Shown here in pieces: positions 7,431-34,579 of a stretch of DNA of 64,000 bases. The notes under the pieces are model-generated. The model ran no database searches. It saw only the letters and a list, made by a program, of their open reading frames with translations, and had not been told where the DNA came from. The position numbers and the translations under genes were made by a program. Origin of the DNA: Mangrovibacterium diazotrophicum (GTDB taxonomy: Bacteria; Bacteroidota; Bacteroidia; Bacteroidales; Prolixibacteraceae); NCBI RefSeq assembly GCF_003610535.1, contig NZ_RAPN01000001.1, positions 3,211,320 through 3,275,319 on the forward strand, in the 5' to 3' direction. How positions within the stretch are numbered: position 1 is the first letter of the stretch; each line of letters starts with the position of its first letter.

Positions 7431-8486
7431 TTATTCTATCCGTTTAACCCCGATTCCGGGTTCACCGTTCAATTGAATTTTTCCATCAACGATTTTCACG
7501 CCGTCAAACAGGTCGTTGCTGATTAACAAGTTACCATCCAGGTCTGCCCAATCCACTTTTGGTGATAACTGAGCTGCTGCCGACACGGCACAGGAAGTCT
7601 CCGTCATGCAACCAATCATTACTTTCATATCAAGTGCCCTTGCCAGCGTCAACATTTTATGAGCTTCACGCATACCGGTGCACTTCATCAGTTTGATGTT
7701 GATGCCGGAATAAACGCCTCGCAAGCGCTCCAAATCGGCCAACCGCTGAACACCTTCGTCAGCAATAATCGGTAGCGGGCTGTGCTGCGTGAGCCAGGCA
7801 ATATCGTCAACCTGGCCTTTGGGCATGGGTTGTTCAATGAACACCACCCCCTGTTCTTTTAACCAAAAAATTGACTCGAGTGCCTGAATCCGATTCTTCC
7901 ATCCCTGGTTAGCGTCAATACTCAACGGCACATCCACCATGGAGCGGATAGTTTCGATCATCTCTTTATCGCTGCTTCGTCCCAGCTTAATTTTCAAAAT
8001 CTTGAATCCCTCCGCCTCTCTCACCTTCTGCCGCAACACTTCGTCGGTATCAATGCCGATGGTCATCGAACTAATCGGGGCATCTTCGGCCGAAAATCCC
8101 CAAATGCGGTGCCAGGGCTGCTGCATCATTTTACCAACCAAGTCGTGCAAGGCAATGTCAATCGAGGCTTTTGCGGCGCAATTCCCGACGGCAACGCTGT
8201 CAACATAGCCAAGAATCTCGTCGAGCCGAAACGGGTCGTTAAACTGCCCCAGATCGACTGAATTCAGGAAGCGGGCGGCCGTCTCATAACTTTCACCCAA
8301 ATAAGGAGGCATCGCCGCCTCCCCATAACCAACCAAGCCGTCAAACTCAAGTTCAACGAGCATCGATGGCGTAACAGTCCGCGAACTTTCGGCCAGCGTA
8401 AATGCATGCCTCAACTGCAAGTCGTACGGTTTAAAACTCAACTTTAAACCGTTCCGCGGTCTTTTGCTTTGTTCTGTTTCGTTCAT
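7431..8486 (-). CDS. ycjG: L-Ala-D/L-Glu (dipeptide) epimerase
   Basis: 351-residue enolase-superfamily enzyme that epimerises L-Ala-D-Glu released from murein peptide to L-Ala-L-Glu, so normal peptidases can use it. The capping domain covers about residues 1-130 and the (beta/alpha)7-beta barrel the rest. Visible active-site residues are the KxK pair K165/K167 (LKIKLGR), metal ligands D191 (SIDANQG), E218 (IEQPMP) and D243 (ADEG), the second acid/base lysine in NIKLMK (K265-K268), and the C-terminal DLDG specificity motif. It is the last gene of a five-gene minus-strand series of murein enzymes, 20 bases after the NlpC/P60 gene, which supplies exactly its substrate class. Specificity for Ala-Glu is inferred from motif and context. 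Confidence 0.92.
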   Translation of the reverse strand: MNETEQSKRPRNGLKLSFKPYDLQLRHAFTLAESSRTVTPSMLVELEFDGLVGYGEAAMPPYLGESYETAARFLNSVDLGQFNDPFRLDEILGYVDSVAVGNCAAKASIDIALHDLVGKMMQQPWHRIWGFSAEDAPISSMTIGIDTDEVLRQKVREAEGFKILKIKLGRSSDKEMIETIRSMVDVPLSIDANQGWKNRIQALESIFWLKEQGVVFIEQPMPKGQVDDIAWLTQHSPLPIIADEGVQRLADLERLRGVYSGINIKLMKCTGMREAHKMLTLARALDMKVMIGCMTETSCAVSAAAQLSPKVDWADLDGNLLISNDLFDGVKIVDGKIQLNGEPGIGVKRIE

Positions 8487-8506
8487 TTTGTGTTGTCCCG
8501 CACCCG

Positions 8507-9700
8507 CTAGTTATACCAGGGGTGGTCTTTAATTTGGATAATTTGTCCGGTATTCAACGAGTTCAGAATGCGACGCGCTGCGACCAGTTGTCCTCGCCGG
8601 TCGGGGTCGTAATCGTCATCCTTCGGGTTGAAACTATTGATTTTCACTCGTCCGGAAGAGTGAATAAAATGATCGTTGCCAATATACAGCCCAACATGCG
8701 TGATGTGATCGGCACTTCGCCCGAAGAACAACAAATCGCCGGGTTGAAAATCGATGCTGTCAACAGAAAGAACTTCGCCGTAACGTGCTTGTTGGGAAGC
8801 GTCGCGGGCCAGCATTACGCCCTGCGAGAAATAGGCTGTCTTCACGAATCCCGAGCAGTCGATTCCTTTGGTTGAAGTTCCACCCCAAAGATACGGGCTG
8901 CCAAACAGCTTTTTCGCAGTCGCGATTACGTTCGCGGCTTCAGGCTGAATCGCCTCCCAATGAGTAATCGGCAAGCATTCTGTGGCTTTCACAAAACCGG
9001 CCCGTCCGTCGGGAAACTTGATTTGAAGAAAACCGTTGACGGATCCTTCACTTTGAACAATGCTCCCTAAAACCAAATCAGACACAGGTTCTGCATCCCC
9101 TTTAGGAGCAGCCAGAGCCCAGCCACTTATTTGGCTGAAAACATAGCGATCCGAAGCTTTCCATTCGGCCATTTGCGCTTCAGTGCAAGTTGCCACACCG
9201 CTCGAACTCGCCCAACCGATGTACGAATCCGGCGTTTGAATCCGGTACCATCCGCCTTTTTTGTCGAGCAACTTCACCGGTGTACCCATCAGTGTTTGCG
9301 ACACCATTTCGGCTGAATATTTCGGGGCCGAACGCATCGGGATAACCGATAATGTGACCAGCCCCCAGGTTTTATCGCCTAAAACCGTATCCGGCAGAAT
9401 ACGAACCGAATCGATTACCTGAACCTGCATCGAAGCAAGTGTATCGAGCAAAAAATCGTGCGCTTCTTTTACACTCGTTTCACCTTTTAAAACGACTTTC
9501 CCACTACTCGTCTCCTGAATGTCGACGTCTAAAACAGCCACTCGCTTATCGGGCACAAATCGCTTAGTAACGCTAGTTGCTAACGTGTCGTACGATTCCT
9601 GATTGCTCCCCGGCTTACAGGAGGCAACCACTAAACACAGCATACCGATGAACATGGATTGCCGCAGAAAACGGCCTCGATGGCAACATTTGTATTTCAT
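8507..9700 (-). CDS. NlpC/P60 murein endopeptidase lipoprotein with SH3 domains
   Basis: 397-residue cysteine peptidase expected to cut gamma-D-Glu-diaminopimelate bonds in muropeptides. The N-terminus carries a lipobox (LVVASC, lipidated Cys about residue 28), so it is probably anchored in the outer or inner membrane facing the periplasm. Two bacterial SH3-like domains follow (about 110-170 and 185-245), then the NlpC/P60 domain (255-380) with catalytic C282 in GIDCSGF, H335 in DHITHVG and H347. A start at an internal ATG (9655) would give a shorter signal. It sits between the phosphoesterase gene (30-base gap) and ycjG (20 bases) and would feed L-Ala-D-Glu to the epimerase. Confidence 0.92.
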   Translation of the reverse strand: MKYKCCHRGRFLRQSMFIGMLCLVVASCKPGSNQESYDTLATSVTKRFVPDKRVAVLDVDIQETSSGKVVLKGETSVKEAHDFLLDTLASMQVQVIDSVRILPDTVLGDKTWGLVTLSVIPMRSAPKYSAEMVSQTLMGTPVKLLDKKGGWYRIQTPDSYIGWASSSGVATCTEAQMAEWKASDRYVFSQISGWALAAPKGDAEPVSDLVLGSIVQSEGSVNGFLQIKFPDGRAGFVKATECLPITHWEAIQPEAANVIATAKKLFGSPYLWGGTSTKGIDCSGFVKTAYFSQGVMLARDASQQARYGEVLSVDSIDFQPGDLLFFGRSADHITHVGLYIGNDHFIHSSGRVKINSFNPKDDDYDPDRRGQLVAARRILNSLNTGQIIQIKDHPWYN

Positions 9701-9730
9701 TTTATTCTCGTTTTTTTGATTACTATCAAT

Positions 9731-11575
9731 TTAATTCACATACTTCAAACACACGATTTTTCCATCCAGCAACGAGACCAAAACCTCGTTGTTTCCAACA
9801 GGCAAGATGTAATTAACCAATGCATTCGAAACTTTGTATTTCCAGGCAACCTGATGTGTCGTTTTATCGATTGCACAAACAATGCCCTCGGTTGTAGGCA
9901 CGAACACCAATTCGCCGGATTCGGTGATTGGCGAAGGTGCAATCTCGTAGCCCAAACCAGCCTTGCTTTCCCAGGCTAGCTTTTGTTCGTCGCACAGGGT
10001 GTAAAAAGCATCGACATTTCCCTCGTGCATGTTTTTGATGTACACCAACTCCCCGTCATCCGAAATGCCAATCGACTCGCGGCAGGAATATGCTTTCGAA
10101 TCCCAGACTTCTGCCCCGGTTTGGGCATCCAGCGCCGTCATGTGCTGATCCGGCGCAACAATAAAGATTTTCCCGTTTGCCGCCACCGGCCAGACCGCAG
10201 CCGGCGACAACATCCGATTGGTATATTTCTCGCGATTCCACATGAGTTTTCCTGTTTGGGTATCCAACGCGTAAAACGAGTTGCCCCACGATCCGAAGTA
10301 GACTTTGCCGTCGTAAACCAGCGGCTTGCACTCAACAAAGTTACTCACCCCGCTGAATTCCCAATTGAGTTTCCCGGTTTTCAAACTGACGGACCGGAAA
10401 ATACCTTCGGAAGAGCCGATATAAACTGAATTTTGATCGGCTGACGGTGAAGCAACAATTGATTTTCCGGTCTCAAAACGCCAAAGCTCCTGCCCCGTTT
10501 TTAAGTCAATACAGTAGATGTTATTGTCGGTCGACGCACAAACGACTTTGTTTTCCGAGACTGCCGGTGTCGAATAGACTTTCCCGCCAGTTTGAAATTG
10601 CCAAACAGTTTTGCCGGTGTTTGTGTCGAGCGCCACAATTGCCCCTGCCACATTTCCGTAAACGGCAATATCGCCTACAACAGAAAGTCCGGTTCCTATA
10701 TCGCTCACATCCTGAAACTCCCAAACTTTCGACACGCCCGGATACTTTTCATTGACCGAATAATCGGGACGAGGGTATGTTTTCGTATCGGCTTCAAAAT
10801 GATGATTCACCAACGGTACTTTGCACCAAACGTCATTTGTCTTTACGCCCGGGGTTCGTTCGGCGTAAAACATCGTGTCCTGTTGGATCGTGACGATATT
10901 GTAGCCGCCAATCTCCCTTCTTGCCCGTAGGTTGGAGCGCCCCATCACGCCGGGAATGCCTTCAAAATCGTACAATTTATTGGCATGCCCGTGCCCCAAG
11001 AGGTCGGCTTGGATATTTCGCGATTTCAGCAGATCGATAATCTTGTACCAGTTCGACAAGGAATTGTCGAGCGGATAGTGGTTGACAAAAATGACCGGTT
11101 GCTCGGGATCTTGCATGTGGCTTAGAATTGAATCGAGGTAAACCAGTTGTTCGTGCGGAACAAGACCCGGAGCCATGCGCATGTTGGGGCCACTGGCTGT
11201 CCCGATAAACAAATAGCCGCCGGCTTCGAAACTAAACTCCTCGCAACCGAAAATACGAACAAAGCTGTTGTTTCCGCTTTCCGACCATTTGGAATCGTGA
11301 TTTCCCGGCACGATGTACCATGGCTTGTTCAATTTTGAAATGATTGCCTTTGCCGTGTTCAATTCTTCGTCGGAACCAAACTCTGTAATGTCGCCCGAAA
11401 GGATCACAAAATCGATGTCATCCTGCCCATTAATATCTTTAACCGTATTTTCCAGATCTTCAGCACCGGTTCCCGAACCAACGTGCGTATCAGTAACATG
11501 CGCAAACCGCAATGTTTGTGCAGAGAGTATTCCTATTTGAAAAGCGAGGATGAAAAGGAATATAATTTTTCTCAT
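9731..11575 (-). CDS. Secreted calcineurin-like phosphoesterase fused to PQQ-type beta-propeller
   Basis: 614-residue exported protein (signal peptide MRKIIFLFILAFQIGILSAQ). Residues 20-260 form a binuclear-metal phosphoesterase: HVTDTHVG, LSGDITE, VPGNHDS, VNHYPLD and GHGHANK are the five metal-binding blocks in order. Residues about 290-610 contain repeated G-x-x-x-W-x-F/Y blocks (TGKTVWQFQTGG, TGQELWRFETG, TGKLNWEFSG, TGKLMWNREK, TGAEVWDSKA), the signature of a PQQ-like or BamB-like propeller. The substrate is unknown. Its place between the amidase and NlpC/P60 genes suggests a cell-wall phospho-compound such as undecaprenyl-linked, teichoic or phosphorylated sugar material, but that is a guess. 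The domain pair is uncommon. Confidence 0.87.
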   Translation of the reverse strand: MRKIIFLFILAFQIGILSAQTLRFAHVTDTHVGSGTGAEDLENTVKDINGQDDIDFVILSGDITEFGSDEELNTAKAIISKLNKPWYIVPGNHDSKWSESGNNSFVRIFGCEEFSFEAGGYLFIGTASGPNMRMAPGLVPHEQLVYLDSILSHMQDPEQPVIFVNHYPLDNSLSNWYKIIDLLKSRNIQADLLGHGHANKLYDFEGIPGVMGRSNLRARREIGGYNIVTIQQDTMFYAERTPGVKTNDVWCKVPLVNHHFEADTKTYPRPDYSVNEKYPGVSKVWEFQDVSDIGTGLSVVGDIAVYGNVAGAIVALDTNTGKTVWQFQTGGKVYSTPAVSENKVVCASTDNNIYCIDLKTGQELWRFETGKSIVASPSADQNSVYIGSSEGIFRSVSLKTGKLNWEFSGVSNFVECKPLVYDGKVYFGSWGNSFYALDTQTGKLMWNREKYTNRMLSPAAVWPVAANGKIFIVAPDQHMTALDAQTGAEVWDSKAYSCRESIGISDDGELVYIKNMHEGNVDAFYTLCDEQKLAWESKAGLGYEIAPSPITESGELVFVPTTEGIVCAIDKTTHQVAWKYKVSNALVNYILPVGNNEVLVSLLDGKIVCLKYVN

Positions 11576-11613: not shown

Positions 11614-12819
11614 CTACTTATTATCTTTTAGCCAGTCGATGATACCTTTACGAATTTTCTTCGCCGTTTTCTTTTGAAAGTGCGGATCGATGACCTGCTT
11701 TTCATCCGTTTCGTTGCTTAAAAAAGCCACTTCAACCAAGCAGTTTGGATATTCGGTAGGACCGCTCAAGGCAAAGTTGAAGTTGCCAACATTGCCGAAC
11801 TCATCCAGCCCCAGTTCCAACATTCGGTTTAAAATGGTTACCGAAAGAGGTTTAAATCCGATATAACGATAGTAAGTGCTCACCCCGCTTACCGATCGAT
11901 TGGAAGAGGAATTGTGGTGAATGCTGATCAGAAGATCCGGGTTTTGTTCCCGTAACATCAATGTACGATCTGTCATACTTAGTTCTTCATCACCATTTCG
12001 GGTCATAAATACGTTCGCTCCGCGGCGTTTCAAATACTTTTCGAGTTGTTTCGCCACCTGCAGATTGCAATCTTTTTCCTGAACACGAGTATAAACGCCA
12101 ACTGCACCTGTATTTGAGCCACCATGCCCGGCATCGATAGCGATCTTCAGATGCTTTAGTGCGGTGCGAGTCGGCTGCCGCTTGATCGAAATTTGTAAGG
12201 ATTTGTCTTTATAACCGATGGAATATCCCCAGATTTGCTGATGTTTTAGTTCGATGATCACTCGGAAAACATCGTCTTCCACCTGTTCACAATACGCATT
12301 TTTTATTTCGGTTGCCGACCGGCGTTGCGTAATCCAGTTTGTGTTGCTTGTCGCACCGTAAATATCCACAACGATCCGCGATGGGTTAATCATCTGAATA
12401 CTTTTATAGGGCAGTCTTTCGTCCAGTCGAATCGACACCAGGTCACTTTGTGCGTCTCCATCCACTTTCCAGGAAGACGTCAGGTGGTACGGAGTTTTTG
12501 GGTAGACCCCCGAAAGTTGAATATTTGCTTTCGGAATAAAAGCTTTGTGATTTTTTGAGAGTTGCACAATGTAGTCATCAGCCAGACTATCGACTACCTG
12601 CAAAACCACCGCGGTATCCAGGTAAGTCATCTTTGCACCACCGAGGCGGTCAGCTCCAGGTCCATATTCCAGGTAGGGCAAATCTCCGGTCGTTATTCCT
12701 TTCAGAAAAAGGCTATCATTGAGCGTTTGAAGACTGTCGGTCTGAGCATACAAACCTGAGAAACAGTAAATACCTAAAAGGAACAGGAACGTTTTTATTT
12801 GATATTCTTTCCGTGACAT
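11614..12819 (-). CDS. N-acetylmuramoyl-L-alanine amidase (Amidase_3)
   Basis: 401-residue zinc hydrolase that separates the stem peptide from MurNAc. A signal peptide (KTFLFLLGIYCFSGLYAQ) directs export. Residues about 80-190 form a beta-rich AMIN-like region (RIVVDIYG), and the Amidase_3 domain occupies about 205-400 with zinc ligands in IAIDAGHGG, the following conserved Glu in the RVQEKD region, SIHHNSS, and the catalytic Glu in LVEVAFLSNETDE. ATG at 12819 is preferred over a TTG three codons upstream. It is the second gene after namZ (73-base gap) in a muropeptide-processing operon, so it likely acts on imported or periplasmic fragments rather than in cell division, though the latter cannot be excluded. 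Confidence 0.92.
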   Translation of the reverse strand: MSRKEYQIKTFLFLLGIYCFSGLYAQTDSLQTLNDSLFLKGITTGDLPYLEYGPGADRLGGAKMTYLDTAVVLQVVDSLADDYIVQLSKNHKAFIPKANIQLSGVYPKTPYHLTSSWKVDGDAQSDLVSIRLDERLPYKSIQMINPSRIVVDIYGATSNTNWITQRRSATEIKNAYCEQVEDDVFRVIIELKHQQIWGYSIGYKDKSLQISIKRQPTRTALKHLKIAIDAGHGGSNTGAVGVYTRVQEKDCNLQVAKQLEKYLKRRGANVFMTRNGDEELSMTDRTLMLREQNPDLLISIHHNSSSNRSVSGVSTYYRYIGFKPLSVTILNRMLELGLDEFGNVGNFNFALSGPTEYPNCLVEVAFLSNETDEKQVIDPHFQKKTAKKIRKGIIDWLKDNK

Positions 12820-12892
12820 ATTATTCAACTAGTTTCAACTTTACAGCGAAAAAAAGCGGTGTAAAATTGCGTTCATCGACTGACTTAAAAAG

Positions 12893-14092
12893 CTAATTTT
12901 CATCGTATAAAAGATACTTCTTTCTCATCTGTTTATACTTATCCAAATCTTGCTGCCAACTGGCACGGATTTGCTCTTCACTCTGCCCCTCGATAATTTG
13001 CTTGCGCAACTGATCGGTGCCGGCCAAGGTGTCGAAAAACGAGATGAAAAAGTTCTCCTTGTCATCGCACTTGTTGTAAAAATCGATGACGTATTTGATT
13101 TCGAGTTGCCTTATCTCCTGGAGCTGGCTGAGCGCCACACCCGATAAATCGTAGCCGTAGCAGGTATCACCTTCAAACTTGGGATGAAGCGCCAGCACCG
13201 GGATCGATTTCGGAACATAGGAAAAATCGGTCGGCGTGTAGTAAGGCGCACCGAATTGCTGAAAGGGTTTGTAAGTTCCGCGGCCTTCATTCACATTGGC
13301 ACCCTCGAACAAACAAATTGAAGGATAAAGGTAAATCGACTTCATATCGGGCAAGTTGGGCGAAGGAAGTATCGGCAACTGGTACTTCGTCGCATGCGTG
13401 TAGTTTTCCACTTTCACCACCTCCAAATCGCATTGAATGCTGTCTTTCAGCCAGCCTTCGCCGTTAGCCATTTGCGCATATTCACCCACTGTAAGCCCGT
13501 GGATAACCGGGATCGGGTTCAGGCCCACAAAACTACCGAATTGAGAATCGAGCACTGGCCCATCAACGTAATAGCCCAGCGGGTTTGGACGGTCGAGAAC
13601 AATCACTTTAATCCCGTTTTCGGCACAAGCCTCCATGACTTTATTGAGTGTTGAGATGTAGGTGAAGAAACGCACACCAACATCCTGAATGTCGAAAACA
13701 ACAACATCGACGCCCTCAAGCATCTCGGGACCGGGTTTCCGATTCTTGCCGTAAAGCGAATAAACCGGAACACCCGTATCCGGGTCGGTTGTACCATCAA
13801 CATGCTTGCCACGCTCGACGGTTCCTTTATAACCGTGCTCGGGAGCGTAAATCGCCTTAATGTTGACACCTTTCCTGTAGAGGTAGTCGATCAGGTGAAC
13901 CGAGTCGACCATCGATGTTTGATTGACCACCAAGCCAACGTTTTTATTTTCCAAAAGCGGCAGGTAGATCTCAGAACGGTCAGCACCAACGATCACCGCG
14001 GGTTCTGACTGTTCAGTTGAATTGCTGCATCCGGTTGTTAAAATAGAAGCCAGAAGAATCAAACAGGAAATCAAACTCAGTTTCGCGTACAT
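12893..14092 (-). CDS. namZ: NamZ-family exo-beta-N-acetylmuramidase (DUF1343) lipoprotein
   Basis: 399-residue lipoprotein (lipobox ILTTGC) of the DUF1343 family, whose characterised Bacillus member NamZ/YbbC removes terminal MurNAc from the non-reducing end of peptide-free glycan. Family hallmarks are visible: IYAPEHGYKG, VVFDIQDVGVRFFTYIS, VLDRPNPLG, the SPNLPD segment and NEGRGTYKPFQQFGAPY. It is the first gene of the namZ-amidase-phosphoesterase-nlpC-ycjG series, and downstream of susCD-1 beyond a terminator, so some read-through is possible. With the NagZ homologue at 19619 it would allow sequential exolytic shortening of MurNAc-GlcNAc chains. The activity is by homology, not shown here. 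Confidence 0.88.
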   Translation of the reverse strand: MYAKLSLISCLILLASILTTGCSNSTEQSEPAVIVGADRSEIYLPLLENKNVGLVVNQTSMVDSVHLIDYLYRKGVNIKAIYAPEHGYKGTVERGKHVDGTTDPDTGVPVYSLYGKNRKPGPEMLEGVDVVVFDIQDVGVRFFTYISTLNKVMEACAENGIKVIVLDRPNPLGYYVDGPVLDSQFGSFVGLNPIPVIHGLTVGEYAQMANGEGWLKDSIQCDLEVVKVENYTHATKYQLPILPSPNLPDMKSIYLYPSICLFEGANVNEGRGTYKPFQQFGAPYYTPTDFSYVPKSIPVLALHPKFEGDTCYGYDLSGVALSQLQEIRQLEIKYVIDFYNKCDDKENFFISFFDTLAGTDQLRKQIIEGQSEEQIRASWQQDLDKYKQMRKKYLLYDEN

Positions 14093-14576: not shown

Positions 14577-14612
14577 AAAAAAAGGACAGTTCTCTTGCAG
14601 AGAACTGTCCTT
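14577..14612 (-). terminator. Strong rho-independent terminator of susCD-1
   Basis: AAGGACAGTTCTC (14582-14594) pairs perfectly with GAGAACTGTCCTT (14600-14612), five-base loop. On the minus strand it is followed by an unbroken T-run. It lies 11 bases beyond the susD-1 stop. Confidence 0.92.
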
Positions 14613-14622
14613 AACAATCTAA

Positions 14623-16194
14623 TTATTCTGCAGTATCCCACCAAACGGGTTCAGTCATATAAGTATTCTCGAAAACACCCAATGCCGTTACTTTGGCAGC
14701 ATTATAATATCGTTCGTAGTAAGCCATCTGGTAACGACGAATGTAATCCGTCTCGGTTGGGAAAGCGGTTTCATAAACAAATTCAGGACGCATAAAGCCT
14801 TTATAGACACCGGCATCCAGATCGTAGGTTCCCGCTGAACCGATACAATAGTCACAACGTCTCATATCAGTCCAAACTTCAGGACTATAAGTTAACGCGA
14901 TGTACTTCTGCATCATGATGTGGCTCAGGGTCAACTCAGTCGAACTTTGTGCCACTGCTTCACTCGCCAGGAAGGCAGCACTTTCAGTCGACGAAATTCC
15001 CATTTTATCCATGTTTGCCTGAATACCTGCTTTGTAAGCTGTTAACGCACTGGCTTTGTCTCCTTCGCGGAAATAAACTTCAGCCTCGATAAACTTCACT
15101 TCAGAGTAGGAAAGCAGGAAATATGGTGAATTTTGTTGTGTGTAGAACAACACATTGTCATCAGTCGAGCGAAGCCCAACATAGTTTACATCCGAAGCCA
15201 ATGGCTCAGAATCTACCTTTGTCAAATCAACACCGTAGGAATACTCTCCTGCATTGTCGCCACTTAAAATTTTCGGGATCAACAAGGCTGCACGAGGGTC
15301 TTCAACGCCGCTATTCCAGCTGTTTCCTGTTCCGTCAACTGTATTCAACAGGTAATCAATCCATAATTTACCGGGCTTGTAGCTGGCCGACATGTTTTGA
15401 TATTGAATAGAACGGCGAGCCGAAATATCGCTAATCTCATACGGATAGGAAGCATCATCGTCATTCGAACTAAAAGACATTGAAAGAGCTGACAGGATGC
15501 CGCTTGGATTATAAGACAACAGATCGGTACCCTCTGCTTTTTTAGACAGGTGACTCATCAAACGGGCTTTTACGCCGTATGCAAACTTGATCCATTTGTC
15601 TACATCACCGTTGTACATGATATCGCCGGCGGCTAAAGTTGGAGCATCTTCCGCTTGAGTCTTCTGCAAGTCAGCAATCGCTTCGTCGCACAATGGCAAC
15701 ACCTGGCTGTAAACGTACTCTGCATCATCATAATCCGGCTGAATGTTTCCTGCCAAACCATCCTGATAGGCCATGTAGCCGTAGGCATCAACCAAAGCGC
15801 CACAACCAAATGCCTCCAAAATTTTACCAACACCAACATAATGCCATGCACCCAAATCTTCTGCATCCTGCACCATTTCGTCGATGTTCACCCAAGCATA
15901 GCCGTACCAGCACTGCCAAACCCATGCGTCGGCATTATTCTGAAATTGCCAGTTTTCCAACTGGTAATAACGGGCACTAGGGCTGTAAATATATCCCATT
16001 TGCTGGGTCAGGGCGGCAACACGGGTTCCGTGACTGCCATAAAAGTCGAAAGTCTCCGTCAAAGCATAGGGCAGTCGCTGATCAGGAGAAGCTTCCTGCG
16101 CGCTGTTCGGGGACGTATTAATGTCCAGATCATAATCACAGGACGTGATTATCAATCCGAGTAATATGATTAAAGTTGTCGTTATCTTTTTCAT
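14623..16194 (-). CDS. SusD-like outer-membrane lipoprotein (SusD_2 type), pair 1
   Basis: 523-residue surface lipoprotein (signal MKKITTTLIILLGLIITSC, Cys lipidation) that forms the lid of a SusC/SusD import complex. The N-terminal DINTSPNSAQEASPDQRLPY and the later YFREGDKASALTAYKAGI and QKYIALTYSPEVWTDMRRCDY regions fit the SusD-like group 2 family with TPR-like helices. It follows susC-1 by 11 bases and ends with its own strong terminator. Within this murein locus the pair probably imports muropeptides or GlcNAc-MurNAc fragments. The ligand is inferred from neighbours; peptides or glycoprotein sugars are alternatives. Confidence 0.92.
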   Translation of the reverse strand: MKKITTTLIILLGLIITSCDYDLDINTSPNSAQEASPDQRLPYALTETFDFYGSHGTRVAALTQQMGYIYSPSARYYQLENWQFQNNADAWVWQCWYGYAWVNIDEMVQDAEDLGAWHYVGVGKILEAFGCGALVDAYGYMAYQDGLAGNIQPDYDDAEYVYSQVLPLCDEAIADLQKTQAEDAPTLAAGDIMYNGDVDKWIKFAYGVKARLMSHLSKKAEGTDLLSYNPSGILSALSMSFSSNDDDASYPYEISDISARRSIQYQNMSASYKPGKLWIDYLLNTVDGTGNSWNSGVEDPRAALLIPKILSGDNAGEYSYGVDLTKVDSEPLASDVNYVGLRSTDDNVLFYTQQNSPYFLLSYSEVKFIEAEVYFREGDKASALTAYKAGIQANMDKMGISSTESAAFLASEAVAQSSTELTLSHIMMQKYIALTYSPEVWTDMRRCDYCIGSAGTYDLDAGVYKGFMRPEFVYETAFPTETDYIRRYQMAYYERYYNAAKVTALGVFENTYMTEPVWWDTAE

Positions 16195-19268: not shown

Positions 19269-19445
19269 GAGACACCTTTTTGTTTGGGTTAAGTAATACA
19301 TCCATTAACTATTCAAGTTTCTGGATTGAAAACTGCAAATATTGATTCGATCTATTTTGCTTCTTTTGAGTTTGGCTTTTGATCTTTTTGCTTCGTCGTA
19401 CGTTGTTTTACTATCGCAACGATTCACAAACACGCGTTCAACGAT

Positions 19446-19480: not shown

Positions 19481-19498
19481 TTGTAATATGTATTACAA
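19481..19498. promoter_or_regulatory. 18-bp palindromic operator, site 1 (susC-1)
   Basis: TTGTAATATGTATTACAA: 8-base perfect arms around TG. Read on the other strand it matches the sites at 28248, 32505 and 32814 (consensus TTGTAwkACATsTyACAA). It ends 27 bases upstream of the -7 box of susC-1. It is probably bound by the FadR-type GntR regulator encoded at 33839-34579. Confidence 0.75.
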
Positions 19499-28196: not shown

Positions 28197-28247
28197 AGGA
28201 ATCTCGATTATAAGTTTAAGACTCTTCGTTTTTTTCAATATTACAAC

Positions 28248-28265
28248 TTGTATTACATCTTACAA
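28248..28265. promoter_or_regulatory. 18-bp palindromic operator, site 2 (susC-2)
   Basis: TTGTATTACATCTTACAA, an imperfect dyad sharing 16 of 18 bases with the site before murQ. It lies 52 bases before the susC-2 ATG, probably in the leader or at the promoter. No exact -7 box was found close to it. Confidence 0.7.
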
Positions 28266-28505
28266 CATGATAAAAACGAAGTCTTCACAAAAACAGAGTA
28301 TTCTTAAAAAATACTTAACACAGGCTTTTTGATAGCCCAATGCTGTTTAAACATAACGCAAAGACAGCCATGACAAACTTATTCGATCATTTTATCACTT
28401 TCGCAAAAACAACAAAAACAATAACAGCCCAAGACAAATAAATCTGGTATGACAAATTATATATAAATTTGAAGAATATTGACATCAAACGATAACTTTC
28501 TTTTT
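28266..28505. other. Divergent intergenic region between susC-2 and anmK
   Basis: AT-rich, no gene. It contains candidate -7 boxes for both directions: minus-strand TAAGTTTG (28374-28381) and plus-strand TAAATTTG (28464-28471, 35 bases before anmK). A half-site resembling the GntR operator (TGGTATGACA, 28445-28454) lies just upstream of the latter. Confidence 0.4.
28464..28471 (+). promoter_or_regulatory. Putative -7 element of anmK
   Basis: TAAATTTG is an exact TAnnTTTG box 34 bases before the anmK ATG. The -33 region is not recognisable. Confidence 0.4.
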
Positions 28506-29621
28506 ATGAGCAAACTTTACATTGGCATAATGTCGGGAACGAGCATGGATGGAATCGATGCAGTTCTGATCTCGTTTGAAAATGGCAAACTGAGCCATTT
28601 AGCTGACCACACGATGGCATTTCCAGAAGCGCTTCAAGCCGATCTTCACAAATTAATTGGATCATTCCAAACAAGCTTGAAAGATCTGGGCGAGATTGAT
28701 CACCGACTTGCTCTCTGTTACGCTCAAGCGGCCAACGAACTAATCGAAAAGGCCAAAGTAGCCGCAACTGACATTGAAGCTATTGGCTGCCACGGGCAAA
28801 CTGTTTTTCACTCGCCCGATACGCAGCACCCCTTCACCATGCAACTAGGCGACGGCAACCTGATTGCTGCCCGAACCGGCATTAAAATCATTACCGACTT
28901 CCGACGAATGGATATGGCGGTTGGCGGCGGTGGCGCTCCGCTAGCACCGGCTTTTCACCAATACTTTCTGAACGACCATTCGGAGAACCGCTGCATTTTA
29001 AACCTGGGGGGCATTGCCAATATTACCATACTGGACAACGACGACAACAAAGTTGTTGGTTTCGATACCGGCCCAGCCAACTGCCTGATGAATAGCTGGA
29101 TTAAAATGAAAAAAGGGGTGGAATATGACGACAATGGAGATTGGGCCAGATCGGGGAAAGTTATTCAGCCACTCCTTGACAAAATGCTAAAGGAACCGTA
29201 TTTCAGTCTTCCGGCACCGAAAAGTACTGGTCGGGAACTATTCAACCTGGACTGGTTGAACACCCAGATAAAAGATTTGCAACATTATAAAGATGGGGAC
29301 ATCCAGGCAACGCTTTTGGAGTTGACAGCAAAATCCATTGCAGACGCCATTCTTGTGACTGCTCCGCAAACAAGTGCAGTTTATGCGTGTGGCGGCGGAG
29401 TTTACAATCCCTACCTCCTGGAGCGGATCTCCGCAAATTTAGATGGTGTAAAAATCGGCACAACAGCCGAACTAGGCACTCACCCGCAATGGGTTGAAGC
29501 AATTGCCTTTGCCTGGCTGGCCATGCGCCGCATGACAAACCAACACGGCAACCTGCCTTCTGTTACGGGAGCCAAATCGAAAGTTTTATTGGGAACGATA
29601 TACGACCCGGCTACATTCTAG
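28506..29621 (+). CDS. anmK: Anhydro-N-acetylmuramic acid kinase
   Basis: 371-residue cytoplasmic kinase that opens 1,6-anhydro-MurNAc (from lytic transglycosylase products) and phosphorylates it to MurNAc-6-phosphate, the MurQ substrate. The ASKHA-fold family motifs are all present: GIMSGTSMDGIDAVL at the N-terminus, GCHGQTVFHSP, DFRRMDMAVGGGGAPLAP with the catalytic Asp, NLGGIANIT, GFDTGPANCLMNSWI and CGGGVYNPYLLERI. ATG at 28506 is preferred over a TTG nine codons upstream because the family begins at MSKLYIGIMSG. It is transcribed opposite to its neighbours, and its 3' end overlaps the SSS symporter gene by four bases in convergent orientation. Confidence 0.97.
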   Translation: MSKLYIGIMSGTSMDGIDAVLISFENGKLSHLADHTMAFPEALQADLHKLIGSFQTSLKDLGEIDHRLALCYAQAANELIEKAKVAATDIEAIGCHGQTVFHSPDTQHPFTMQLGDGNLIAARTGIKIITDFRRMDMAVGGGGAPLAPAFHQYFLNDHSENRCILNLGGIANITILDNDDNKVVGFDTGPANCLMNSWIKMKKGVEYDDNGDWARSGKVIQPLLDKMLKEPYFSLPAPKSTGRELFNLDWLNTQIKDLQHYKDGDIQATLLELTAKSIADAILVTAPQTSAVYACGGGVYNPYLLERISANLDGVKIGTTAELGTHPQWVEAIAFAWLAMRRMTNQHGNLPSVTGAKSKVLLGTIYDPATF

Positions 29622-31066
29622 TTTGCCGGGTTGTCTTTGCGGTTAACGATCAACAAGCCGAGAAACATGATTAGCCCATTCACCAGCAACAGCTCGAATC
29701 CGATTTTATAACCAAAGAGCCAAGCTTCGGAATTCACATTCAGGATGTAAGATAAAACCGGAGAAAGCAAACCAATCACCGGCACGTAGCGATCTATCAC
29801 TTGGCGCTTCGTCAGGATACCAAATGCAAACAAGCCCAACAACGGTCCGTAAGTGTATCCGGCGACACGAAATACAGCTGACACCACACTTTCGTTATTG
29901 ATAATGCGGAAGACAACAATCACCAGAAACATCAGCAATGAAAACCCAACGTGCACCAGCATTCGGGTCTGCTTACTTTTCGCACCAGCGGGGTCCAGGT
30001 TTAAAAAGTCAATACAAAACGAGGTTGTCAAAGCTGTCAAGGCCGAATCGGCGCTGGAGTAAGCAGCGGACAAAATTCCAAGCAAGAACAGCGCACCTGC
30101 AAGTGGCCCAAAGTATTTCATGGCCAGCAAGGGGAACAAATCGTCCGTGTGTTCAGGCAGGCTGATTCCTTTTTGCTGCGCGTAGTAATACAACAAAACA
30201 CCGAGCGATAGAAAGAAAATATTGGCAATAATGAAGGCAAAACTGAACCAGTAAATATTCTTCTGTGCGTCTTTGCGCGTCTTACAGGTGAGGTTTTTCT
30301 GCATCATGTTCTGATCCAAACCATTCATTGTCAACACGATACCAACACCGGCCAAAAATTGCTTGAAGAAGTTTGTTTCTGATTTCCAGTCCCAATCAAA
30401 AATGCGACTGTACGGGTGCTGGTCCACCACGGTGAACATGTCACCAAAGCCAAGGTTCATCTGCTTCAGAATCACCCAAATGGTAATGCCGATCGCTCCG
30501 AGGATAAAAAATGTTTGCAGCGAGTCGGTCCAAACAACGGTTTTAATACCCGCACGGTAAGTGTACACCCAGATCAAAAACAGGGTGATCAAGACCGTTA
30601 CACCAAAAGGAATACCCAGGTCGTTGAAGAACGCAAGCTGCAATACCCCGGCCGCCAGGTACAAACGAAAGGAAGCTCCGATTGTCTGTGAAACCAGAAA
30701 GAAAAAAGCACCTGTTTTGTACGAACGAACACCAAAGCGCTCGTCGAGGTAGGTATAAATGGAAACTAAATTCAACCGATAATAGAGCGGAATCAAGACG
30801 AGCGCGATAATCCAGTAACCGATGAAGTTCCCCATTAAAAACTGAAGGTAAGTCCAGGCCGAATTGCCGACCTCTCCCGGAACAGAAATAAAAGTCACCC
30901 CCGAAATTGTCGATCCGATCATCCCGAAAGCGACCAAATACCACGGCGAGCGCCTGTTACCGGTAAAGAAAGTCTCGCTGTCGGCATTACGCGAGGTAAA
31001 CCACGATACCCCCATTAAAACGGCAAAAAAGGCTAGAATTATGATCGCAATCAATAAAGTACTCAT
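29618..31066 (-). CDS. Sodium:solute symporter (SSS family)
   Basis: 482-residue inner-membrane transporter with about 13 predicted helices. The N-terminal FTGNRRSPWYLVAFGMIGSTISGVTFISVPG segment (helix 1 break and GxxxSAxxF-like region) is the SSS/SGLT signature. Members of this branch carry sialic acid, N-acetyl sugars, galactose or proline. Between anmK and the transglutaminase gene, and with murQ close by, the likely cargo is a murein sugar (MurNAc, anhydro-MurNAc or GlcNAc), a role filled by other permeases in AmpG/MurP/MurT systems. That cargo is inference. The transcript converges on anmK with a four-base overlap, so antisense interference is possible. Confidence 0.9.
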   Translation of the reverse strand: MSTLLIAIIILAFFAVLMGVSWFTSRNADSETFFTGNRRSPWYLVAFGMIGSTISGVTFISVPGEVGNSAWTYLQFLMGNFIGYWIIALVLIPLYYRLNLVSIYTYLDERFGVRSYKTGAFFFLVSQTIGASFRLYLAAGVLQLAFFNDLGIPFGVTVLITLFLIWVYTYRAGIKTVVWTDSLQTFFILGAIGITIWVILKQMNLGFGDMFTVVDQHPYSRIFDWDWKSETNFFKQFLAGVGIVLTMNGLDQNMMQKNLTCKTRKDAQKNIYWFSFAFIIANIFFLSLGVLLYYYAQQKGISLPEHTDDLFPLLAMKYFGPLAGALFLLGILSAAYSSADSALTALTTSFCIDFLNLDPAGAKSKQTRMLVHVGFSLLMFLVIVVFRIINNESVVSAVFRVAGYTYGPLLGLFAFGILTKRQVIDRYVPVIGLLSPVLSYILNVNSEAWLFGYKIGFELLLVNGLIMFLGLLIVNRKDNPAN

Positions 31067-31127: not shown

Positions 31128-32498
31128 TTATTGATAATCCACATCAATATCCCAGTTCCACTGGTTAAAATACAGGTTGCCCTCTTCCCATTCCACTTCA
31201 CCTCGTTGAAAATCGTAAGGTTCACTTCGCAAAAACTTCTTCGGCGGGTAAAGCTCCTGCGCGAAATCGTCATTCACAATCAAGCGATAAGCGTCAATGC
31301 CATGCACATAGAATTGACGAAGTTTTTCATCGTCGCTAGATTGAAGTTTGAAGGACTGATCCAAAGGCACCCAGCCAATTCCTTCGTAAAACACTTCGCA
31401 CCAATCGTGCAAATTCACATGCCCCGGATGCAGCATGAAACCGCTCTGCCACTTGACCGGAACGCCCTGCGAACGCGCCAGACTCATAAACAGGAAGGTC
31501 TGCATACCGCAGTCGCCATGCCGGTTCGATAAAACATACTCCGTAATGTTGGCCATCGTGCAGTACTCCAACGCACTGGCCCATGGAATCGAATCGTTGA
31601 TCCACTGGTAAATCCTTTCTACTTTCCGCAATGGATTCTTTTCTGCACCCACAATTCGACTCCCCAACGCTCTAATTTCATCAGAGAAAAGAATATGCGG
31701 CGGCCGTTCCTGCGTGTAGTGCATATAAACGGCACTGGTTGTATCATAAGGCAGCACATCCGAAGGCTCAATGTCGAAATACTGCGCTGATGTTTGAATA
31801 GCGTATTTCACGGAGAACACAGTCGGCTGGTTCTTCACGGTCTTCTGTTCCGCATAAAATGTACGCTGCAAATGCTCATTTGGTGCCAAAATGCTGTTAT
31901 CCGCCTCCGAAGAAAGCACTTTAAAATTCTTCTGCCTGGCAATGCCCTCGCGTGGTGCAGGCAACCAGCAGCGCAACACGGTGCCCTCGGGAACAACATC
32001 GGGCTTTACACTGATCGTATAGCTCACAACCAGATTCTGAGGCAACACCGGAGCATAAGTTTTGTCGCTGGCCGCAATCACCTTGGCAGTATGCTCCAGA
32101 CAAAACGAATCCAATGCTGAAACCTCCGGTGTGAACATAGCAGAATCGAAGATCAAAAGGCGTTGCAAATTGGCAACAGCGTTTTTAAAATAGCGCTTCT
32201 CTCCGCCAATTACCCGCATCTCAAGTTTCCCCGATTGCTCCCAATCCTGCATCTGCGAATCTGAAACAGCTCCATAGCGCTTCTCAATTTGTCTCCTCAC
32301 TTCCGGTTCAGTCAACGAAAAATCCAGCAGAATCCGATCATTGATCTCCTGAATCGAATCAGGATTCGACTCAAGAGCAACCTGCGATTCCACGATCGAA
32401 GAACTTAATGCTGTTCGGTTTACGTCGCGAAGCGAAGTGAAAGCAAAAAGCGAAATGACCGCAATTCCGGGTATTAGTAGGAGATATCGATTTTTCAT
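31128..32498 (-). CDS. Exported transglutaminase-like protein
   Basis: 456-residue protein with an N-terminal signal or anchor (NRYLLLIPGIAVISLFAFTS). The C-terminal half (about 300-410) carries the transglutaminase-like Cys-His-Asp triad: Cys in HGDCGMQTFLFMSLAR, His in HPGHVNLHDWCEVFYEG and the Asp in GWVPLDQSF. The N-terminal part (about 40-290) has no domain I recognise. Bacterial transglutaminase-like proteins are mostly proteases or amidases, so action on stem peptides is plausible in this locus. It probably forms one unit with the SSS symporter gene (61-base gap), driven from a promoter overlapped by the operator at 32505-32522. Confidence 0.82.
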   Translation of the reverse strand: MKNRYLLLIPGIAVISLFAFTSLRDVNRTALSSSIVESQVALESNPDSIQEINDRILLDFSLTEPEVRRQIEKRYGAVSDSQMQDWEQSGKLEMRVIGGEKRYFKNAVANLQRLLIFDSAMFTPEVSALDSFCLEHTAKVIAASDKTYAPVLPQNLVVSYTISVKPDVVPEGTVLRCWLPAPREGIARQKNFKVLSSEADNSILAPNEHLQRTFYAEQKTVKNQPTVFSVKYAIQTSAQYFDIEPSDVLPYDTTSAVYMHYTQERPPHILFSDEIRALGSRIVGAEKNPLRKVERIYQWINDSIPWASALEYCTMANITEYVLSNRHGDCGMQTFLFMSLARSQGVPVKWQSGFMLHPGHVNLHDWCEVFYEGIGWVPLDQSFKLQSSDDEKLRQFYVHGIDAYRLIVNDDFAQELYPPKKFLRSEPYDFQRGEVEWEEGNLYFNQWNWDIDVDYQ

Positions 32499-32504
32499 GC
32501 TAAC

Positions 32505-32522
32505 TTGTATGACATGTCACAA
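32505..32522. promoter_or_regulatory. 18-bp palindromic operator, site 3 (transglutaminase gene)
   Basis: TTGTATGACATGTCACAA, centred on ACATGT, starts seven bases before the ATG of the minus-strand gene and overlaps its -7 box (32520-32527). This placement fits repression by blocking the promoter. Confidence 0.72.
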
Positions 32523-32527
32523 ATATA
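32520..32527 (-). promoter_or_regulatory. Putative -7 element of transglutaminase/symporter unit
   Basis: TATATTTG on the minus strand is an exact TAnnTTTG box, giving a very short leader of about 15 bases. It shares three bases with operator site 3. Confidence 0.5.
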
Positions 32528-32813
32528 GCAATTCGAGAATATCAAATCATGACATTTGAAAGAAAGTCTCAAAAATTCAGAAATTACTAAAATAGAGTAA
32601 TCAGAAGCTCGAATCAAAAACCATATTGACACGATAAATCCTATATTTTACCATAAAGACTAATTCAACAGCTGAACCGACATATGAATGATAACAAAAC
32701 CACTAATTGGCAAGACAGTCGGAAAACGACAGAAAATCAATAAGCTTTTAGAAATCTAACCAGTGAATTTACCCGAGCCGAAAAACTGAAACGTTAAATA
32801 AACCTCAAAATAT
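32528..32813. other. AT-rich intergenic spacer in the divergent transglutaminase/murQ region
   Basis: No gene or RNA is recognisable. It separates the promoter of the transglutaminase unit from operator site 4 of murQ. Confidence 0.5.
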
Positions 32814-32831
32814 TTGTAATACATCTTACAT
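32814..32831. promoter_or_regulatory. 18-bp palindromic operator, site 4 (murQ)
   Basis: TTGTAATACATCTTACAT matches the other three sites. It ends 27 bases upstream of the murQ -7 box, exactly the same spacing as at susC-1. Confidence 0.72.
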
Positions 32832-32858
32832 GAACGAAATTTATTTGATCAATTGGTC

Positions 32859-32866
32859 TATATTTG
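32859..32866 (+). promoter_or_regulatory. Putative -7 element of murQ
   Basis: TATATTTG, an exact TAnnTTTG box. The -33 region (about 32836-32840) lacks TTTG, which would fit dependence on an activator. A 7-bp hairpin (ATTCAGG 32910-32916, CCTGAAT 32923-32929) lies in the leader of about 150 bases. Confidence 0.5.
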
Positions 32867-33021
32867 TACAAAGCATAAGAGATCTTTCAAATCATAATAT
32901 TGAAAAAAAATTCAGGGACAAACCTGAATCATTGACAAGCACAAAAAAGTATAAGTCAATAGTTTACCGAACTTTAAAAATTGAATTATAACCGGTGACC
33001 ACCGAAATACAGCCACTATTT

Positions 33022-33837
33022 ATGAGCATAAACAGCATAACAGAATCTGAATCACTGTACAACAATTTAGAGGAAATGTCTGTCAGACAGCTATTGGAAG
33101 GCATACATGAAGAAGACTGCAAAGTGCTACCGGCAGTTCAAAAAGCGATCCCGCAAATTGAGCAATTGGTTTCAAAAGTCGTGGACCGCGTCAAAAAAGG
33201 CGGACGACTGTTTTACATCGGTGCAGGTACCAGCGGACGACTGGGCATACTTGATGCTTCCGAGATCCCCCCAACCTACGGCGTCGGATACAATCTGGTT
33301 ATTGGGCTAATCGCAGGAGGTGATCAAGCCATCCGGAAAGCAGTAGAATCAGCTGAGGATAATCGCGAACTGGGATGGCAGGAACTGCAGGCTTTCAATA
33401 TCAGCGAGCATGATACTGTTGTTGGAATAGCAGCTTCCGGTCGTACTCCTTATGTGATCGGCGCCGTTGCAAAAGCTCGGGAAAATGGCATACTTACTGC
33501 ATGCATCACCAACAATCCGGGCAGTGAGTTAGCTGCTAATGTCGACATCCCCATCGAAGTAGTCGTGGGACCGGAGTTTGTTTCGGGTAGTACCCGCATG
33601 AAATCCGGTACGGCACAGAAACTCGTTCTGAATATGATCACCACAACCCTGATGATTAAGTTGGATCGCGTTAAAGGAAACCGGATGGTAAACATGCAAC
33701 TCACCAACCAGAAACTAGTGGAACGCGGCACCCGGATGATTATGGAAGAATTGGGTTTCGATGAGGAGAAAGCACGTCGCCTTCTACTGCTACACGGCTC
33801 TGTTCAGAAAGTTTTGGAAGCCAATAAAGCCGATTAA
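33022..33837 (+). CDS. murQ: N-acetylmuramic acid 6-phosphate etherase
   Basis: 271-residue cytoplasmic lyase that splits the lactyl ether of MurNAc-6-phosphate into GlcNAc-6-phosphate and D-lactate. The SIS fold is visible with FYIGAGTSGRLGILDASEI (catalytic Glu and phosphate-binding loop), IAGGDQAIRKAVESAEDN, the second phosphate loop GIAASGRTPYVIGA, and the family-specific SGSTRMKSGTAQKLVLNMI. ATG at 33022 (MSINSITESESLYNNLEEMS) matches relatives; a GTG nine codons upstream is the alternative. It receives MurNAc-6-P from AnmK and perhaps from a MurNAc kinase not seen here. It converges on the gntR gene with one base between stops. A GCCGATT/AATCGGC stem (33829-33846) spans the junction. 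Confidence 0.97.
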   Translation: MSINSITESESLYNNLEEMSVRQLLEGIHEEDCKVLPAVQKAIPQIEQLVSKVVDRVKKGGRLFYIGAGTSGRLGILDASEIPPTYGVGYNLVIGLIAGGDQAIRKAVESAEDNRELGWQELQAFNISEHDTVVGIAASGRTPYVIGAVAKARENGILTACITNNPGSELAANVDIPIEVVVGPEFVSGSTRMKSGTAQKLVLNMITTTLMIKLDRVKGNRMVNMQLTNQKLVERGTRMIMEELGFDEEKARRLLLLHGSVQKVLEANKAD

Positions 33838-33838
33838 A

Positions 33839-34579
33839 TCAATCGGCATTGCTACTTTTCAGGAACTTATTATAAACCTGCAGGTTGTGCTCCAAATGGA
33901 GTTGCATTTTCTCGTAAGCGCGGTCGGCATCTCTTTCGCCGATGGCATTCACAATCTCTTTGTGATAGCCTAGCGTGATTTCTTTTTCACCCTCTATATT
34001 GGCATAAATGTAATTCCGCATGCGGGGAAGCAAGTTGTGCACCGGCTCCATCGTCACAATCACAAAGGGGTTTCCTGTAGCACGCGCTACGGCCAGGTGA
34101 AATTTATTATCCAGATCCGACTCCATCTGTGTGTTATCCGGATCACAAATAGAAAACTCGGCCAAATTGCTTTGCAGGTTCTGAAGATCCTCTTCGGTGC
34201 GGTTTAAAGCAGCCATTTTCGCAATCTCCGGCTCGAACGCCATCCGAAGCTCAATAATCTGCGAAATAAGATTCACATCGAATTTTAAATCGTAGTAGAG
34301 GTTCAACGAGTCAATCGCATCCTTCATGTTGATCTTCTTAACGATCATCCCACTACCTTTGCGGATTTCGATCAAACCGCGGGCACTCAAACGGCGCAAA
34401 GCCTCACGCAGCGCTGTGCGGCTTACAGCGAACATTTCGCAAAGTTCCCGCTCCGACGGCAATTTAGAGCCAATCGGAAGCTTCTTCTCTCGGATCGCAC
34501 GTTCGATGTTTCGCTCAATTTTCTGACTTAACGTTTGTGTCGTCCCAATTTTTTGAAAGATGTCATTCATATCTGCCAT
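33839..34579 (-). CDS. GntR-family (FadR/FCD subgroup) transcription regulator
   Basis: 246-residue regulator. The N-terminal winged helix (about 18-85) reads IREKKLPIGSKLPSERELCEMFAVSRTALREALRRL and GLIEIRKGSGMIV. The C-terminal FCD helical domain (about 100-235) holds the ligand and metal pocket, with the Asp/His pattern seen around DLDNKFHLAVARATGN and the later HxxxxxAI-type segment (YHKEIVNAIGERD). It is the only DNA-binding regulator inside the murein locus, and the four 18-bp palindromes nearby have the size and TTGTA/TACAA ends common for FadR-type operators. A MurNAc-6-P or related sugar acid effector is plausible but unproven. No copy of the operator was found before its own gene. 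The start could be the ATG three codons later. Confidence 0.93.
   Translation of the reverse strand: MADMNDIFQKIGTTQTLSQKIERNIERAIREKKLPIGSKLPSERELCEMFAVSRTALREALRRLSARGLIEIRKGSGMIVKKINMKDAIDSLNLYYDLKFDVNLISQIIELRMAFEPEIAKMAALNRTEEDLQNLQSNLAEFSICDPDNTQMESDLDNKFHLAVARATGNPFVIVTMEPVHNLLPRMRNYIYANIEGEKEITLGYHKEIVNAIGERDADRAYEKMQLHLEHNLQVYNKFLKSSNAD

Follow-up and report, generated by a model that had tools for sequence, protein, structure and literature searches.

A 27-kb block of sixteen genes in Mangrovibacterium diazotrophicum (Prolixibacteraceae) is quite probably a peptidoglycan utilization locus, that is, a regulon of the polysaccharide utilization locus (PUL) type that would import cell-wall fragments through the outer membrane. 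The block occupies positions 7431–34579 of the stretch of 64,000 nucleotides that was analysed (the window; contig NZ_RAPN01000001.1, positions 3,211,320 to 3,275,319), in a genome of 5.8 Mb and 10 contigs. The basis of this reading in the sequence consists of the identities of the genes, the recurrence of SusC–SusD pairs (SusCD) with murein genes, a shared promoter box and paralogy to a more widespread gene set, and from these we infer the ligands, the direction of transport, the order of the enzymes and the regulation. All 16 open reading frames of the initial annotation are in place, and the murein families that it had named are borne out by Pfam and NCBIfam matches; enzymes specific to murein at the level of the sugar, the amide and the peptide stand together in one block. 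From low to high coordinates, the features are as follows.

7431..8486, minus strand: Epim, dipeptide (L-Ala-D/L-Glu type) epimerase; 3iji match, no signal peptide seen
8507..9700, minus strand: NlpC/P60 with SH3 domains, dipeptidyl-peptidase VI/YkfC type; lipobox, Cys and His motifs present
9731..11575, minus strand: MPP-Bam, calcineurin-like phosphoesterase fused to a BamB/PQQ-like propeller; N-terminus signal-peptide-like
11614..12828, minus strand: Ami3, AMIN plus Amidase_3, N-acetylmuramoyl-L-alanine amidase; family match, signal-like N-terminus
12893..14092, minus strand: NamZ, exo-beta-N-acetylmuramidase; lipobox, 4jja match
14582..14612, minus strand: hairpin of 14 pairs with a T tail just after SusD1, likely terminator; longest stem listed
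14623..16194, minus strand: SusD1 (SusD-like_2); lipobox, family match
16206..19301, minus strand: SusC1; closest solved relative BT2264
19481..19498, no strand: box 1, 0 mismatches, SusC1 promoter region; pattern scan
19619..22621, minus strand: NagZ (GH3) fused to a beta-lactamase/PBP4B-like domain, type-2 clade; KHFPGHGDTQADSH and SVTK motifs present
22679..23788, minus strand: NagX-like transmembrane acetyltransferase (HGSNAT_cat); score under the NagX equivalog cut-off
23905..25236, minus strand: SusD2; lipobox, family match
25251..28238, minus strand: SusC2; family match
28248..28265, no strand: box 2, 1 mismatch, between SusC2 and AnmK; pattern scan
28479..29621, plus strand: AnmK, anhydro-N-acetylmuramic acid (anhydro-MurNAc) kinase; the genome's only match to the family
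29618..31066, minus strand: SSS-family symporter; family match
31128..32498, minus strand: transglutaminase-like protein; family match
32505..32522, no strand: box 3, 3 mismatches, beside the transglutaminase-like gene; pattern scan
32814..32831, no strand: box 4, 1 mismatch, upstream of MurQ; pattern scan
32995..33837, plus strand: MurQ, MurNAc-6-phosphate etherase; equivalog match
33839..34579, minus strand: GntR (FCD/NanR-like) regulator, candidate reader of the boxes; family match

The edges of the locus were set by synteny: it lies between polyprenyl synthetase/polA and deoC/mazG/dtd, and the same flanks are found in genome G518 and in the genus-mate G002, by inference Mangrovibacterium lignilyticum. 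Because AnmK and MurQ lie on the plus strand and a hairpin follows SusD1, the block is not one operon. T-tailed hairpins are not in excess across the region (20 found, shuffle mean 23.4), and a sigma-70 promoter scan of the region likewise gave no excess over shuffles.

AnmK clears its equivalog cut-off (NF007139, 515.8 versus 367 bits), as does MurQ, narrowly in bits (TIGR00274, 304 versus 302). Epim falls below the NCBIfam epimerase cut-offs, and its closest solved relative (3iji, E 1.2e-148), in an entry titled muconate cycloisomerase, is what we take to be the dipeptide epimerase of B. theta. The closest solved relatives are dipeptidyl-peptidase VI (DPP VI; 3pvq, E 3.4e-67, also 3npf) for NlpC/P60, lipoprotein YbbD (3bmx) for NagZ and BT2264 for SusC1 (E 7e-115, versus 4e-62 for the runner-up); NamZ matches 4jja (E 3e-117). 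Three genes had not been named in the initial annotation, namely the metallophosphoesterase–BamB-like fusion, the NagX-like acetyltransferase and the transglutaminase-like protein. According to a simple pattern check and inspection of N-termini by eye, NamZ, NlpC, SusD1 and SusD2 have lipoboxes, the N-termini of NagZ, the amidase and the phosphoesterase resemble signal peptides, and Epim, AnmK, MurQ and GntR have neither; the predicted locations are consistent with a layered arrangement.

We divided the NagZ–beta-lactamase fusions into two clades, type-1 and type-2, both labels being coined in this analysis. Type-2 (at least 52% identity to NagZ of the window, E = 0) occurs in 41 of 140 genomes of the family, own genome included, and type-1 (approx. 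40–47% identical) is widespread in the family. Of the 40 other type-2 loci of full length, 31 were fetched around NagZ and 9 left out; among the 31, four (G446, G458, G460, G482) had been chosen for SusD3 and G486 for lacking it, which leaves a fair set of 26. Seven short or cut NagZ loci with SusCD were excluded as evidence because six of them had been picked via a SusD match. A SusC gene lies within 17 kb in 21 of the 31 loci and in 17 of the 26 chosen by NagZ alone (G492 after extension). An intact adjacent SusD was not called in two of these 17, of which G431 is cut and G494 has SusC in pieces, followed by SusDx. Among the nine loci without SusC, five reach the contig end (G017, G022, G439, G496, G503).

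At least four types of SusCD occupy the locus: SusCD1 (genera g1, g18), SusCD2 (g1), SusCD3 (seven genera) and SusCDx (five genera), and a SusCD1-like pair at 48–49%/31–32% was found in G439, G455 and G468. The genus codes are those of the tool; g11 includes Maribellus luteus (G455) and Draconibacterium aestuarii (G452), as named by inference. Of 28 matches to SusD3, 24 have one or more murein genes at a distance of up to 15 kb and 22 have two or more; the four with none are two contigs of approx. 4 kb (G435, G489) and G004 and G523, which show GntR alone (with a phosphoesterase in G004). This count omits two of 30 matches, G030 (old label; the pair adjoins NlpC, Epim and NagZ) and G434 (a fragment). 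For SusDx, with the query source G010 omitted, the figures are 11 of 11 and 8 of 11, respectively. Beyond the order, two Chryseosolibacter loci have SusCD3 at 67–68% identity beside a type-1 NagZ, with NamZ, GHL10 and MurK nearby. A scan of NagZ loci in other Bacteroidota, covering the best 80 of 582 relatives, gave a match to SusC or a TonB-dependent receptor in 16 of 67 type-1 loci, mainly in Hymenobacter and Chryseosolibacter, also in Spirosoma and Rhabdobacter, with many of the stretches being short, and in 5 of 13 type-2 loci, several of which are short contigs. The gene neighbourhood that the initial annotation proposed to compare across relatives is thus present there, as the enzyme core with a SusCD pair recurs in several genera.

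In the genus-mate G002, the genes of the locus are 72–89% identical to those of the window, except for NlpC (65%) and AnmK (63%). Both SusCD pairs, NagZ, NagX, AnmK, the SSS symporter, MurQ, NlpC, Epim and GntR are retained, and NlpC–Epim come directly after SusD1; NamZ, the amidase, the phosphoesterase and the transglutaminase-like gene are missing there, which counts against the main reading. From this gene content, NlpC–Epim, NagZ–NagX and AnmK appear to be the stable partners of SusCD1 and SusCD2, and the NamZ–amidase–phosphoesterase module to be variable. Between NagX and SusD2, G002 also has a beta-lactamase-family gene that is not in the window (L035:2859-4787, i.e. G002:C10:59859-61787; 642 aa, 39% identical to the NagZ–beta-lactamase fusion).

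The second line of evidence is an 18-bp palindrome, TTGTAAKAYRTMTTACAA, with four sites in the window (SusC1, SusC2/AnmK, the transglutaminase-like gene and MurQ). No further site with up to 3 mismatches was found in the 64 kb, and 60 shuffles of the locus average 0.08. Three of the sites in the window supplied the consensus, which makes the count in the window partly circular; counts in other genomes are out of sample, with relatives sharing descent. In the own genome, all three sites with at most one mismatch fall in the locus. With up to two mismatches, 6 sites were found in the own genome, 9 in G002, 9 in G032, 9 in G477 and 7 in G470, as compared with 4, 0, 1, 4 and 4 for a reversed-pattern control, and 21 of these 40 sites lie in murein or SusCD1 loci (3, 3, 5, 6 and 4, in the same order). 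In G032 and G477, which belong to another genus, a three-box cluster led to an unlinked murein block with GntR, a transglutaminase-like gene (G477), NlpC, Epim, MurQ, MurK, a xanthan-lyase-like gene, GT2, DUF4922, SpoIID and an AmpG-like gene; its boxes stand before GntR, before NlpC–Epim and between MurK and the xanthan-lyase-like gene.

The unlinked SusCD1 of G032, G477 and G481 has a box approx. 240 bp before SusC1, and an alignment of 11 SusC1 promoters shows the box in all 10 apart from that of G452, the flanks having diverged between genera while being similar among most g11 genomes. With up to 3 mismatches, a box precedes 24 of 41 SusC genes of such loci (20 shuffles: mean 0.45, maximum 2) and 12 of 115 unlabelled operon heads in the same DNA, some of which are unlabelled MurK genes. 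The density at this threshold is 58 sites in 835 kb near murein loci, several of them intragenic; in 197 kb of comparison DNA there are 7 sites, 4 of which lie at unlinked SusC1 promoters. SusC3 genes of g11 that have no box come after NagX–NagZ, and the NagX–NagZ promoter has two boxes in G477, G456 and G481. By the distribution of the box, SusCD and the murein genes resemble a single regulon, also in genomes where they lie apart, and it is probably GntR that reads the box, given its linkage and the box before gntR. The proposal of a PUL-type locus with peptidoglycan as its substrate is supported by the recurrence of SusCD with the enzymes and by this palindrome common to SusC and murein promoters, and the predicted co-regulation of the two gene groups has support at the sequence level from the palindrome and from its presence at unlinked genes as well.

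A number of observations weigh against this reading, the first being the abundance of SusC. A first look at the genome gave 124 candidates, 56 of these were scored and all 56 matched, SusC2 not being among those; with at least 56 SusC in 5.8 Mb, 0.27–0.58 are expected per 27 kb, and two would occur there by accident in approx. 3–11% of cases (our own arithmetic). Nine of the 26 loci chosen by NagZ have no SusC, including four on a contig that continues (G032, G034, G452, G502), and the same is true of G486. It might accordingly be argued that the block is an internal recycling cluster where SusCD pairs stand by chance in a PUL-rich genome. We regard this as very improbable, as four or more kinds of SusCD pair are found at this place across several genera, the 55 other SusC genes listed for the own genome all lie more than 10 kb from NamZ and NagZ–beta-lactamase, and the box is shared, also by unlinked SusCD1. 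The proximity of SusC alone is weak evidence; the case is carried by conservation and the promoter box.

Other points on the same side concern the particular pairs of the window and the reach of the box. Of 11 genomes with a SusD1 ortholog, 7 have it apart from murein genes and the other 4, window included, have a murein gene near it. Among 393 genomes of the order, a sample poor in family members and without G002, SusD1 was found at E ≤ 1e-60 in the own genome alone, and SusD2 at E ≤ 1e-40 in the own genome and two others, the latter on contigs that show no murein gene; this rarity speaks against a wide role of these exact pairs, and the window's own SusCD pairs appear to have a narrow range. 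As many as 19 of the 40 box sites are elsewhere, versus 13 reversed-pattern sites in total, and none of the 7 inspected among these 19 stands beside a labelled murein gene. No box was found at Chryseosolibacter/Hymenobacter SusC promoters in the 9 loci scanned, and the NamZ–Ami3–MPP–NlpC–Epim stretch of the window, behind the hairpin, has no box of its own. The block has no endo-muramidase either, so that pre-cut fragments would be needed.

Some of the contrary evidence points to a different substrate. The SusCD pairs could import chitin-derived or other oligosaccharides rich in N-acetylglucosamine (GlcNAc), or glycopeptides, with the murein enzymes as neighbours that share GlcNAc metabolism; we hold this to be unlikely. 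NagX and NagZ would also suit the use of GlcNAc oligomers, and the characterised GH3–beta-lactamase fusion RmNag3 cleaves acetyl-chitooligosaccharides, according to the retrieved part of the source (PMC6987092). The modelled fold of SusD1 groups with BT2263 of the BT2261–2264 complex and equally with chitin-binding SusDs, and the fold is therefore compatible with a peptide as well as with a sugar ligand. A SusD2-like gene adjoins or is near NagX in 7 of 16 Hymenobacter loci, in one of which (L186) the order NagX–SusD2–SusC2–AnmK is as in the window with AnmK in the opposite orientation, and such pairs after NagX may mean GlcNAc or chitin. The locus of G002, moreover, is without NamZ and amidase. 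However, the families found in the block include no chitinase, and its NamZ, amidase, DPP VI, Epim, AnmK and MurQ are murein enzymes; most of the genomes examined have SusCD3 in the company of NamZ, NlpC, Epim or NagZ, and the box links SusCD with MurQ and NlpC–Epim.

Two other murein sets are present in the same genome. The own type-1 NagZ, on contig C3, adjoins a second NamZ, and a third locus (C1:4023453-4038279, approx. 0.8 Mb from the window locus) contains an AmpG-like permease, SpoIID, DUF4922, GT2, GHL10, a second NagX and a MurK-like kinase (8oqw, 8ow9); neither the type-1 NagZ/NamZ locus nor the AmpG-like locus has a box with up to 2 mismatches. Since the genome has a separate NagZ/NamZ locus, we class the window locus as an accessory second, scavenging-type set, paralogous to the more widespread one. 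The term 'recycling' of the initial annotation is better replaced by this description. Its suggestion of outer-membrane import, and not only recycling through an AmpG-type permease, is probably right; as a limit on it, an AmpG-like permease does exist, in the third locus, its best model being TIGR00901 (189 bits, below the 350-bit cut-off). It is also conceivable, with a small probability, that the locus serves to recover fragments of the cell's own wall that escape into the medium, or answers wall damage, which would be compatible with outer-membrane import. The recycling enzymes are identical for own and foreign wall, and a beta-lactamase-like domain is fused to NagZ, but type-1 NagZ/NamZ and AmpG-like/MurK sets are already in the genome, so an accessory second set suggests a nutritional role.

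In a peptidoglycan utilization locus, the likely input would be soluble fragments released by other cells, and SusCD1 and SusCD2 would carry these into the periplasm, SusCD1 being associated with the enzymes for stem peptides and SusCD2 with those for amino sugars. The periplasmic amidase would free stem peptides, from which NlpC/DPP VI would cut L-Ala-D-Glu; the free N-terminal L-Ala that the DPP VI family requires would be provided by the amidase. NagZ would remove GlcNAc, and NamZ MurNAc, from the chain end, and the SSS symporter and/or other permeases would move the products inward. AnmK of this locus and the MurK-like kinase of the AmpG-like locus would phosphorylate muramic sugars, MurNAc needing the latter kinase, and MurQ, fed by both, would yield GlcNAc-6-phosphate. 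Epim would convert L-Ala-D-Glu to the usable dipeptide L-Ala-L-Glu, and GntR probably governs the set via the 18-bp box. More speculatively, NagX could re-acetylate glucosamine ends, letting NagZ act on N-deacetylated walls, and, as a guess, MPP-Bam could cut teichoic-acid links.

A more specific version of this scheme, which we put forward tentatively, is that parts of the wall are imported separately, stem peptides by SusCD1 and muramyl-glycan by SusCD2/SusCD3, under one GntR regulon that persists when its genes are scattered and in which the importer is an exchangeable module. SusCD1 would be the stem-peptide importer because it stands beside DPP VI–epimerase (G002, g18), because a gamma-glutamyltranspeptidase (GGT) gene is near it in 6 of 7 g11 genomes and because its SusC is nearest to BT2264. 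The GGT gene (L083:8791-10476, i.e. G477:C22:38790-40475) precedes the unlinked SusCD1 and is absent in G032; it fits a gamma-glutamyl-peptide theme and is probably a separate unit from SusCD1, as the box stands between the two. In G454 (C1:2738366-2743720), both SusC1 and the GGT gene next to it are broken into two frames, by decay or sequencing error. Reduced type-2 loci were observed as well, consisting of NagZ–NagX only in G452 (C68:40208-44361) and of MPP–NagZ–NagX only in G032 (C1:4805907-4812071), with other members in G032 at C1:4581902-4595806.

MPP-Bam (window 9731-11575) is also present in murein loci of g2, g8, g11, g18 and g21 at 59–84% identity. A fusion of GH9 with polysaccharide deacetylase (approx. 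825 aa; L039:15098-17581), absent in the window, is frequent in the murein loci of relatives (g8, g9, g11, g15, g18, g21) and has a box in front in several of them; GH9 is unexpected in a murein locus. Outside the locus, window positions 48874-55985 contain a row of genes for an extracytoplasmic function (ECF) sigma factor, FecR and prc/PDZ-like, CarboxypepD_reg and MG2 proteins.

Known systems resemble the locus in part. B. subtilis has NagZ/NamZ muropeptide rescue and the YkfABC murein-peptide pathway; NagZ of the window is nearest to YbbD, and DPP VI and epimerase form a pair as YkfC/YkfB do, adjoining one another in the window, in G002, G470, G438 and others. The host of the window locus, in contrast, is Gram-negative, with outer-membrane importers and a NagZ–beta-lactamase fusion. 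The BT2261–2264 SusCD complex of B. thetaiotaomicron, which presumably carries peptides, includes the nearest solved relative of SusC1 and is in the same top group as the SusD1 fold. In common with PULs, the locus combines tandem SusC–SusD pairs (two) with glycoside hydrolases and a regulator in a single block that is conserved, and it has linked cleaving enzymes for one substrate (NagZ of GH3, NamZ, amidase) and a conserved SusCD–enzyme linkage, with exceptions (SusCD1 unlinked in 7/11, 4/26 uncut loci without SusC, no NamZ or amidase in the locus of G002). It differs in that the enzymes are murein-specific, including amidase, DPP VI and epimerase, in that a GntR-FCD protein with a palindromic box is the linked regulator, PUL regulators being of other types, and in that different genera have different importer pairs at the same place.

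In the retrieved parts of a PUL survey, the murein families of glycoside hydrolases GH23, 24, 25 and 73 are under-represented in PULs and present in several predicted ones (PMC6499787), a finding that leaves the exo-acting NagZ and NamZ uncovered. A metaproteome study, likewise seen in excerpts, labels a susC-susC-susD-unk-GT51 set of Prolixibacteraceae 'peptidoglycan' (PMC11653725). In the excerpts of these two sources, peptidoglycan as a PUL substrate receives passing mentions only (PMC6499787, PMC11653725). Work on T. forsythia describes the use of muropeptides, their transport at the inner membrane, AmpG and MurTKQ, and the retrieved portions of these studies do not name an outer-membrane importer (PMC5388701, PMC7670621, PMC5790795, PMC10465942); the terms susd and tonb have 0 matches in the available text of PMC5388701 and PMC7670621. 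The Tannerella operon consists of xanthan lyase, two gtf, lytB, ampG, ybbC and murTKQ. NamZ (ybbC) and MurQ are present in the window, relatives such as G010 merge the Tannerella-type set with window-type genes, and the third locus of the own genome resembles the T. forsythia operon. The differences are that AmpG-like, SpoIID and MurK genes of M. diazotrophicum are outside the window, and that the window has AnmK, DPP VI and Epim. Among the matches listed in the open-access literature, no paper describes SusCD import of peptidoglycan fragments. Candidate importers, a candidate regulator and its putative operator are now named in environmental genera with cultured species, those concerned being Mangrovibacterium lignilyticum, Maribellus luteus, Draconibacterium aestuarii and Chryseosolibacter, which makes the question of such import directly testable.

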